Origin: Pseudomonadota bacterium
GTDB taxonomy: Bacteria > SZUA-182 > DTGQ01
Direction of reading: 5' to 3'
Length of the DNA stretch: 34,974 nt
Assembly: GCA_030625085.1 (NCBI GenBank)
Contig: DAOURK010000035.1
Location: forward strand, 1-34,974
Shown here: piece after piece, positions 23,667 through 27,363 of the stretch
How positions within the stretch are numbered: position 1 is the first letter of the stretch
How the letters are laid out: the number at the start of each line of letters is the position of its first letter
Notes under the pieces: generated by a model
Told to the model about the DNA's origin: nothing
Database searches by the model: none
What the model saw: the letters and a program-made list of their open reading frames with translations, nothing else
Program-made: the position numbers and the translations under genes

Positions 23667-23720
23667 AGACTTTTTTCCTCTTTATATGCATATATTCAAT
23701 TTAAAAAGATATTTTTTTTT

Positions 23721-23747
23721 GACAAGATTTACAGGATTTACAGAATA
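23721..23747. repeat. GACAGGAT-type dispersed repeat, copy a
   Basis: GACAAGATTTACAGGATTTACAGAAT is a run of ACAGGATT-like units. The same motif recurs at 23974-24000, 24882-24945, 27169-27185 and 27332-27363. Confidence 0.65.
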
Positions 23748-23902
23748 AAAAAAGAAATTCTCTTATAGCCTGCTGAGCCTGTCTAAACTGAAAAAACAGT
23801 CTATAACCTGAATTTTGCATAAAATTAGAATAGCAAACTTAAAAAATAAAAGCAAACAATTTCAGCATTTATTTTGCACTAATTATACACATATATAACA
23901 CG

Positions 23903-23932
23903 TTGACATATAATCGATTATTATGTTATGTT
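23903..23932 (+). promoter_or_regulatory. Predicted promoter of ccsA-resB
   Basis: A perfect TTGACA -35 box at 23903-23908 and TATGTT at 23927-23932, spaced 18 bp. The 354-bp gap here otherwise contains two GACAGGAT-type repeats and no gene. Confidence 0.4.
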
Positions 23933-23973
23933 TCAATATCTTTTAACTGATTGAATACCGGCATTTTTTAGAT

Positions 23974-24000
23974 AGGATTTACAGGATAAAAAGGATAAAA
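23974..24000. repeat. GACAGGAT-type dispersed repeat, copy b
   Basis: AGGATTTACAGGATAAAAAGGATAAAA, three AGGAT units, lies directly upstream of the ccsA ribosome binding site and probably within its mRNA leader. Confidence 0.55.
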
Positions 24001-24009
24001 AAAATAAAA

Positions 24010-24015
24010 AGGAGG
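24010..24015 (+). promoter_or_regulatory. Shine-Dalgarno sequence of ccsA
   Basis: AAAGGAGG (core AGGAGG 24010-24015) is the strongest ribosome site in the neighbourhood and is followed, five bases later, by ATT in the ccsA frame. No ATG, GTG or TTG occurs in that frame until 24309, well inside the protein. This site therefore points to an unusual AUU start. Confidence 0.7.
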
Positions 24016-24020
24016 CTATC

Positions 24021-24821
24021 ATTCCTGTATCAAAGTCCCTTACTATTGGCAATATAGTTGTTGCAATTCCTCTTTTCTTTTATCTTTTTGCCCAAACCAC
24101 ATCACTGGCCAGGGTATGGGCCGGCAAACGACGTAAACTGTTTCTCAAATGGGCTATTGTTTTTTTAGATTTTGGTCTTATTGCCCAAGGGTACTTTATT
24201 CTGGTACGATGGATAACAAGCAAACATTTTCCAGTAGTAGGGTTATTTGAAGCCCTGTACTTTTTCTCTTTTTGTCTGGCTTTATCGTATTTTTATTTAT
24301 ATTTTCAAATGCCGGTTTACGAAGCAGGCTTAGACTTTCTGCTCGGATTGAGTTTATTGACCCTTTTTCCCACCTGGTGGTTGAGTAAACCAATTGTTCC
24401 GCTTACCCCTTTTCTGGATACCCCTTTGTTTTTTCTTCATGTTATTTTTTCTTTTGCAGCCTATGCACTTTTTTCTGCAGCAGCCTGTCTGGGTGTGTGG
24501 TACTTAATTGACCGAAGAGATACTATTCTCCTTTGGCTTGAACATAGTATTGCCTTGGGTTTTTATTTATTTACCCTGTGTATGGCCGCTGGTGCTGTTT
24601 GGGCATATCTGGCCTGGGAGTCTTACTGGATGTGGAATTTAAAGGGATTATGGTCATTCGGTATCTGGCTTTTTTATGCCGGGATGGTGCATTATCCCTA
24701 TCTTGGATTAGAACAAATGTCAGGCCAAAAAAGGGCCCTGTTTTCTATCCTGGGATTTCTTTTAATGATTTTTACATTTTTAGGTTTAGGGTTACTTATG
24801 AGAGGAACGCATCGATTTTAA
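24021..24821 (+). CDS. ccsA: Cytochrome c biogenesis protein CcsA/ResC-like, probable AUU start
   Basis: A 266-residue polytopic membrane protein, full length for CcsA if it begins at ATT 24021. Conserved reading continues without a break from there, with helices at 'IVVAIPLFFYLF' and 'WAIVFLDFGLIAQGYFILV', then 'SKHFPVVGLFEALYFFSF' (periplasmic His69 of the family's haem ligands). The haem-handling segment is 'WESYWMWNLKGLWSFGIWLFYAGMVHYPY' at residues 199-227; family members normally read W-x-WDPKExW, so Asp, Pro and Glu are changed here, while His224 is kept. CcsA with ResB exports and attaches haem to c-type cytochromes outside the membrane. It is 146 bp upstream of resB. A shorter version beginning at ATG 24309 would lose three helices and is unlikely. 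Confidence 0.85.
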   Translation: MPVSKSLTIGNIVVAIPLFFYLFAQTTSLARVWAGKRRKLFLKWAIVFLDFGLIAQGYFILVRWITSKHFPVVGLFEALYFFSFCLALSYFYLYFQMPVYEAGLDFLLGLSLLTLFPTWWLSKPIVPLTPFLDTPLFFLHVIFSFAAYALFSAAACLGVWYLIDRRDTILLWLEHSIALGFYLFTLCMAAGAVWAYLAWESYWMWNLKGLWSFGIWLFYAGMVHYPYLGLEQMSGQKRALFSILGFLLMIFTFLGLGLLMRGTHRF

Positions 24822-24881
24822 TAATAAATCTATAGCATAGAAATTTTTATTTTTTTTATGGGGCTTCCCAATCATTTTTTT

Positions 24882-24945
24882 GACAGGATAAACAGGATTG
24901 AATAGGATAAAAAACAAAAATTTCGTGAATCCTGTCAATCCTGTC
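24882..24945. repeat. GACAGGAT-type repeat, copy c, forming an inverted repeat
   Basis: GACAGGATAAACAGGATTG at the left and AATCCTGTCAATCCTGTC at the right are inverted copies of the same motif about 27 bp apart. It fills the ccsA-resB spacer and ends 10 bp before the resB ribosome site, so the messenger would carry a hairpin between the two genes. Confidence 0.75.
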
Positions 24946-24967
24946 TAATTTAATGAGGTAAAACTTT

Positions 24968-26014
24968 TTGAAGCTACAGAAATTGTGGAATGTAAAAAAG
25001 ATACTCGGCATAATCAATCTGTGTGTGTTTCTGCTGGTTGGCGGGTCATTGATTATGTATTTCAATGCTCAGACATTTCAAAAAATTAATTACTCTAATC
25101 TTTTGTCATGGTTACTGAAATATAGCCTGAGTGCTCCCCTGAAAGTTGGTTGGTTATGGATATTCTTAGCAGCCATGGGTTTTCTTGGTACAGGGTGTTT
25201 CTATTGCCTTTTTCAAAAGGAAAAAACCCATAGGCTGTATAAAAAAATCGCTGTTTTGCTATTTCATCTGGGTTTTTTTCTGGCTGTCCTTGGAATGATT
25301 ATTGATTCCGTATGGGGAACTAAAGGCCTTAGTATGGCTTTATTACCTAATAAACCCCAATCTGTAATTAATAATTCAAATATGTCTCTTGAACTTACAA
25401 ATATAGATTTATTGTCTTACTCAGAGCAAAGAGGAGGAGGACAGGGATTAGCCAAAGGATCTTTGATTTTACGAGATAAAGATTCGATCTTAACTCAACA
25501 AGAAGCTTATCCGAACCATCCCTTGCTTTATTGGGGGTGGGCTGCCTTTTTAATTAAAATTCAAAATAAATGGCAAGCTATTCGTATTCGATTGGAAGGA
25601 AAAGAGTATGTAGTTTCACCAGAAGAGATAATACCCTTATCAGACCCGAATCTGCAACTGCGATTCAATTTTTTTAATCCGCATCTAACCTTAGATATGT
25701 TTGGACAGGTCAAATCCGATTCCCAATCAATGGAAAATCCGGCTGTTCATTTTTCCTTGCTCTCCAAAAAATCTGACCAACCCATCTTTTCAAGCTGGTT
25801 GATTCAACGATTCCCCAAAATGAATCCCCTGGCCAAAAAAGGTATTACTATTACGTGGATGGATAATATCATAGACCGGCAAGCATTGATTCATCTGACT
25901 CATCATCCGGGTTTGGGATTGGTTATATTAGGATACCTTTTTATTATAGTCGCTACTTTTGGTTTACTTTTTTTCCATTTTCAAAAAGGGCCTTTTAAAA
26001 CCATTGTACAGTAA
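24968..26014 (+). CDS. resB: Cytochrome c biogenesis protein ResB-like
   Basis: A 348-residue ResB/Ccs1-type protein, shorter than most. Membrane helices lie at residues about 10-32, 62-82, 90-115 and 315-340. The usual large extracytoplasmic domain sits between the third and last. 'KIAVLLFHLGFFLAVLGMIID' carries the conserved His of the third helix; a second His pair lies in 'LIHLTHHPGLGLVILGY' before the last helix. Both are candidate haem ligands. The start is TTG at 24968, with GAGGT eight bases upstream; the next in-frame ATG (at residue 31) would remove the first helix. With CcsA it forms the system II cytochrome c synthase. The sequence is divergent, so the family call is strong but not certain. 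Confidence 0.82.
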   Translation: MKLQKLWNVKKILGIINLCVFLLVGGSLIMYFNAQTFQKINYSNLLSWLLKYSLSAPLKVGWLWIFLAAMGFLGTGCFYCLFQKEKTHRLYKKIAVLLFHLGFFLAVLGMIIDSVWGTKGLSMALLPNKPQSVINNSNMSLELTNIDLLSYSEQRGGGQGLAKGSLILRDKDSILTQQEAYPNHPLLYWGWAAFLIKIQNKWQAIRIRLEGKEYVVSPEEIIPLSDPNLQLRFNFFNPHLTLDMFGQVKSDSQSMENPAVHFSLLSKKSDQPIFSSWLIQRFPKMNPLAKKGITITWMDNIIDRQALIHLTHHPGLGLVILGYLFIIVATFGLLFFHFQKGPFKTIVQ

Positions 26015-27139: not shown

Positions 27140-27168
27140 TATCCGGCGGATGGGCAGCTATTTTTTTT

Positions 27169-27185
27169 GACAGGATTAACAGGAT
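27169..27185. repeat. GACAGGAT-type dispersed repeat, copy d
   Basis: GACAGGATTAACAGGAT, two units, lies 30 bp after the SH3-protein stop. The 223-bp gap also holds several copies of TAATTC-type short repeats (27215-27275). Confidence 0.65.
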
Positions 27186-27331
27186 AAAAGAAATTATGAA
27201 TTCTTTTCATTCTGTAATTCGTAATTCAAAAAATTGCTAATTCCTAACCAATCATCAATTTGTAATTCATAATGAAAAACAATTTTAGTAAGGATGTGTT
27301 GTACTGCGCTCGGCTATTTTTTTGACATTTT

Positions 27332-27363
27332 GACAGGATGAATAAGATAAAAAAAATCCTGTC
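27332..27363. repeat. GACAGGAT-type repeat, copy e, hairpin next to the antiporter stop
   Basis: GACAGGAT and ATCCTGTC form an 8-bp inverted repeat 16 bp apart. On the minus strand it follows the antiporter stop directly and runs into T-rich sequence, so it might act as a weak terminator. Confidence 0.6.

Follow-up and report, generated by a model that had tools for sequence, protein, structure and literature searches.

In E. coli, infC is translated from an AUU codon against which its product, IF3, discriminates (PMC5472188), and an AUU start subject to the same discrimination is also given for pcnB (Binns and Masters 2002, as cited in PMC13009471). In Staphylococcus aureus, cvfC1 (AUU) and ccpN (AUA) lie behind extended Shine-Dalgarno sequences and reach approximately 10-30% of the output of AUG, with approximately 10% measured for the Staphylococcus cvfC1 AUU and its strong Shine-Dalgarno sequence (PMC13009471). 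The GUC start of Streptomyces sigR is repressed by IF3 (PMC5472188). A survey of 60,690 Listeria genomes found six cases to be fixed among 2265 core genes, with ATT on infC and ATC on rnhC, and a reporter ranked ATG above ATA and ATA above ATT (PMC13068326). The view taken in the earlier note on this DNA, that AUU starts are known chiefly from infC, is dated in the light of the documented cases of pcnB and cvfC1 (AUU), ccpN (AUA), rnhC (AUC) and sigR (GUC).

Our study reports on a ccsA gene that probably belongs with these cases. It lies in a window, the whole stretch of DNA that was analysed, of 34,974 nucleotides (contig DAOURK010000035.1, assembly GCA_030625085.1), with the following features.

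23903-23932, forward strand: TTGACA-N18-TATGTT, a possible sigma-70 promoter whose -10 element is preceded by TG (10 of 12 matches in a consensus scan), which would give a leader of about 80 nt
23964-24003, forward strand: left arm of an interspersed repeat of the AGACAGGATTTACAGGATAAAAAGGAT type that occurs genome-wide, in the leader upstream of the Shine-Dalgarno sequence (44 matches in the same genome)
23973-23975, forward strand: in-frame stop TAG, the upstream bound of the ccsA frame
24006-24020, forward strand: Shine-Dalgarno sequence AAAAAGGAGG with further AUC pairing at the start codon, -12.6 kcal/mol with the anti-Shine-Dalgarno sequence GAUCACCUCCUUU
24021-24023, forward strand: ATT, the proposed initiation codon of ccsA
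24021-24821, forward strand: ccsA, a heme-handling cytochrome c assembly membrane protein of the CcsA/CcsB type, 266 aa plus stop (PF01578, 1.2e-20)
24309-24311, forward strand: ATG, the first canonical in-frame codon, internal and lacking a Shine-Dalgarno sequence
24968-26014, forward strand: downstream gene for a ResB-like partner, with an apparent TTG start behind GAGGT (PF05140, 0.00064, below cut-off)

As in infC and pcnB of E. coli, whose products are wanted in small amounts, an AUU behind a Shine-Dalgarno sequence would serve as the sole start; unlike them, ccsA specifies a predicted cytochrome c assembly factor, and the only orthologue does not share its ATT. The pairing of a non-canonical codon with a strong, extended, start-proximal Shine-Dalgarno sequence recalls cvfC1 and ccpN of S. 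aureus, which are conserved throughout the genus and were demonstrated by ribosome profiling, whereas the start of ccsA and its effect are deduced, and its three extra AUC pairs, which adjoin the start codon, are parted from GGAGG by a 2-nt mismatch. With Streptomyces sigR the locus would share a non-canonical start outside infC and an operon with a putative partner gene, although the codon is a different one and the regulation of sigR was measured. The rarity of such genes is similar to that in Listeria, with five in approximately 2 Mb here, although this is one draft genome set against 60,690. The AUU start on ccsA would thus be a further example of a known but seldom recognised type of weak start; a non-exhaustive literature search found no earlier report of one on a cytochrome c assembly gene.

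After the TAG the ccsA frame stays open over 23976-24821, and a codon-by-codon listing places the first ATG, GTG or TTG at 24309; all coordinates given for the frame in the earlier note proved correct. The distance from the stop to the first canonical start, 111 codons, is the maximum in a set of 623 non-overlapping ORFs, each 150 codons or longer, drawn from 1.03 Mb of the host genome, for which the median is 5 codons and the 99th percentile 39. The three canonical start codons together make up 5.1% of sense codons, a frequency at which a run of 96 codons free of them is expected by chance in fewer than 1% of genes. The translation scores 74.6 bits against the Pfam family Cytochrom_C_asm, above the cut-off of 29.9, and 120.8 bits (8e-35) against TIGR03144, below the cut-off of 187.6. 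Judged by the Pfam match and an orthologue that is 49% identical over its full length, the frame certainly encodes a protein. Since gene finders recognise no start codons other than ATG, GTG and TTG, they would either annotate ccsA as a 170-aa fragment or drop it.

In an alignment of CcsA-type proteins H140, W194, W199, W203, W205 and H224 are invariant and H264 is nearly so. The tryptophan-rich motif reads WESYWMWNLK in place of the usual WGSYWSWDPK, with N for D, and is common to the window protein (24021-24821) and the order-level orthologue (L033:3989-4783). Proteins with this motif would form a divergent CcsA subfamily whose ResB-like partner is recognised by no NCBIfam model; the Shine-Dalgarno duplex of the partner gene in the window is modest (-7.0 kcal/mol). 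The same genome holds two further CcsA-type genes, both with ATG starts.

Relatives of ccsA were sought in GTDB species genomes and nine genomes of the host's class. The nearest, and the sole close orthologue found, is full length and lies in JAFGSM010000034.1 (L033/L005) of genome G004, which belongs to the same order and another family; this record alone matched in the search of genome contigs, a search of viral contigs found none, and three genomes of the same family hold distant paralogues only and no orthologue. The earlier note had proposed inspection of the same codon in sister genomes, and the comparison is available at the level of the order, where it cuts both ways: L033 has ATG and not ATT, and this ATG aligns free of gaps to codon 24024, one codon past ATT 24021. 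Upstream of the ATT no L033 sequence could be aligned. Differences between the two genes at codon positions 1, 2 and 3 are 0.54, 0.39 and 0.64 upstream of 24309 and 0.39, 0.24 and 0.61 downstream of it, a pattern that suggests constraint at the protein level on both sides, weaker towards the N-terminus. Furthermore, R63 and P71, numbered from the ATT, are invariant across 17 aligned CcsA-type proteins; both precede ATG 24309, which is codon 97 on this count, so an internal start there would yield a broken protein.

The Shine-Dalgarno sequence AAAGGAGG occupies 24008-24015 and is followed by CTATC (24016-24020) and the ATT, a spacing of 5 nt as had been claimed. Only 2.8% of 988 ORFs scored from their first ATG match the leader duplex in strength. 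Dinucleotide shuffling of the leader put AAGGAGG 4-9 nt ahead of 24021 in 0.23% of cases. The anti-Shine-Dalgarno sequence was taken from the 16S genes of the same-family genome G003 (L249 and L251), both copies of which end in GGATCACCTCCTTTCTAA, as the host assembly lacks 16S. In the sampled genome, Shine-Dalgarno sequences show no enrichment for ATT as a class (ATT followed in 8 instances, and AAT, AAA and AAC in 7 each); a Shine-Dalgarno sequence and an ATT therefore prove nothing by themselves, and homology carries the case.

Taken together, the N-terminus of the orthologue, the positions of R63 and P71, a Shine-Dalgarno sequence in the top 3%, and the presence of other genes without canonical starts in the genome make translation from AUU 24021 the best reading of this locus, one that we hold with considerable confidence and that upholds the start proposed in the earlier note. 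The predicted N-terminus is Met-PVSKSLTIGNIVVAIPLFFYLFAQ...

To find genes unable to start canonically we surveyed approximately 2.0 of the 4.9 Mb of the host genome, with identities assigned by NCBIfam and cases resting on homology as well as Shine-Dalgarno matches. Five genes that lack a canonical start emerged, namely ccsA and the following four.

L070/L192:13413-13991, forward strand: infC, ATA start; compared below with infC at L064, L065, L068, L069, L072 and L073
L139:4874-6037 (C98 104874-106037), reverse strand: dxr (TIGR00243), ATT start behind AAGGAG
L196:19396-19905 (C227 39396-39905), forward strand: rimM (TIGR02273), apparent CTG start behind GGGAGGT
L196:7954-8682 (C227 27954-28682), reverse strand: rluB-like pseudouridine synthase, apparent ATA start behind GGGAGGT

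The infC gene of the host begins with ATA behind GGAGGTGA and encodes a full-length IF3 (193 codons from the ATA) that aligns with solved IF3 structures. ATA occupies the corresponding position in G001, G002 and G003 of the family and G004 of the order, with a spacing of 9 from GGAGG in most of these copies, and ATT is found in G005 and G006, from two more remote families in the class. The dxr gene opens with ATT-AAT-AAA-AAG, leading into KKIVLLGSTGSIG, and no canonical codon occurs until 20 codons in, beyond the nucleotide-binding motif; dxr of the sister genus G002 (L160) reads GGGGGCTATCATTAAAAAAAAG, with ATC-ATT and no canonical start before the motif, and dxr of G001 and G003 has ATG. In rimM a stop lies a few codons upstream of the CTG and 59 codons pass without a canonical codon. 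Relatives of rimM and of the rluB-like gene mostly have canonical starts nearby.

Several candidates from the same survey were set aside: the long ORFs L084, L089, L093 and L076, which show a Shine-Dalgarno sequence with ATT, ATA or ATC, lie within longer genes that start canonically, and an argC-like ORF (L184:2331, ATA) offers a canonical codon 18 codons later, adjoining the conserved start. L128:4804 (ATT/ATA) is still a candidate; there, TTG and ATG follow 10-12 codons on, before a stretch resembling a signal peptide. A codon-usage score for defining coding ORFs was dropped, as it threw out too many real genes.

These genes bear on the chance that the codon at 24021, or at 24018, is in truth ATG, GTG or TTG and that one wrong base in the consensus, or a strain variant, has concealed it. 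The ATG at the aligned position of L033 and the fragmentation of the assembly into 247 contigs are compatible with such an error. However, errors would repeatedly need to hit start codons for at least four further genes to lack a canonical start, the infC pattern is conserved across the class, the dxr case recurs in a separately assembled sister genus, and the host genome holds no second copy or variant contig of ccsA. A lone base error at ccsA thus becomes less likely, and we consider it distinctly unlikely.

Initiation might also take place at another near-cognate codon of the frame, the candidates being ATC 24018, ATT 24045, ATA 24054 and CTG 24105, given that bacterial ribosomes accept several such codons and that ATC 24018 adjoins the ATT. 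No other near-cognate codon in the frame has a 7-nt Shine-Dalgarno match, however: ATC 24018 is just 2 nt from the Shine-Dalgarno sequence, the later codons have matches of at most 4 nt, and the ATG of the orthologue aligns at 24024, beside ATT 24021. We regard a start at any of these codons as quite improbable.

A gene that has lost its start, for instance because the interspersed repeat took the place of its original 5' terminus, and that is now silent or decaying, would account for the half copy of the repeat in the leader, which lacks the usual right arm, and for the departure of the tryptophan-rich motif from the usual form; given the two paralogues with ATG starts, this ccsA might tolerate poor or lost expression. 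Against this, the frame is fully open with all invariant CcsA residues kept, length is conserved as far as the GTHR motif at the C-terminus, third positions diverge more than second positions from L033 even upstream of 24309, the strong Shine-Dalgarno sequence is retained, and the divergent motif is common to L033, all of which makes decay very improbable. The region directly upstream of L033, which has ATG, holds no such repeat; in ccsA an earlier ATG might have been displaced by the repeat. Initiation at ATG 24309 to give the 170-aa protein that automatic gene finders would call is hardly conceivable, for this codon, the first canonical one in the frame, lacks a Shine-Dalgarno sequence and would drop 96 residues, including R63 and P71, and cut the Pfam domain.

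Translation of ccsA from AUU 24021 in this uncultured bacterium suggests a model for its expression. The strong Shine-Dalgarno sequence, together with the AUC that touches the start codon, would hold the 30S subunit, and the initiator tRNA would pair with the AUU in spite of the third-position mismatch. By analogy with the published cases, output should be below that of an AUG start. IF3, whose own gene begins with AUA here, may discriminate against this AUU, and the minor CcsA/ResB pair might thereby be held at a low level coupled to IF3 activity. A low dose of the divergent CcsA is plausible given the two other CcsA-type genes, each of which begins with ATG. Both the low expression and the IF3 sensitivity put forward in the earlier note thus stand as inference.

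A broader proposal is that near-cognate starts are a regular low-output setting in this class, with infC (AUA), dxr (AUU), the rluB-like gene (AUA), rimM (CUG) and ccsA (AUU) forming an IF3-sensitive set, so that the level of IF3, autocontrolled via its AUA, would jointly tune genes for isoprenoid synthesis, ribosome maturation and cytochrome c assembly; we think this doubtful. The point most worth following is that a single genome from an obscure class has several near-cognate starts, of which the dxr case is common to genera. Several homology-anchored non-canonical starts in one genome provide a clean set in which to ask which genes keep weak starts, and whether IF3 co-regulates them. The dxr, rimM and rluB genes, like ccsA, would be wrongly trimmed by gene finders.

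The leader and its surroundings hold some further features. In the promoter scan the region gave approximately twice the shuffled number of hits, which is not proof of a promoter. A hairpin that would hide the start, in which ACAGGAU of the repeat pairs with AUUCCUGU, was rejected as its fold is no better than those of shuffles (z 0.69). The repeat itself has arms GACAGGATTTACAGGAT ... ATCCTGTCAATCCTGTC, with window copies at 23714-23790, 23964-24003, 24880-24955 and 27162-27357; a few dozen of the 44 matches to the leader copy are short copies of the repeat, and its dozens of genome copies often lie immediately 5' of gene starts. The ten bases GGCTATCATT, which run across the end of the Shine-Dalgarno sequence and the start codon, are identical in ccsA (24014-24023) and in dxr of G002.
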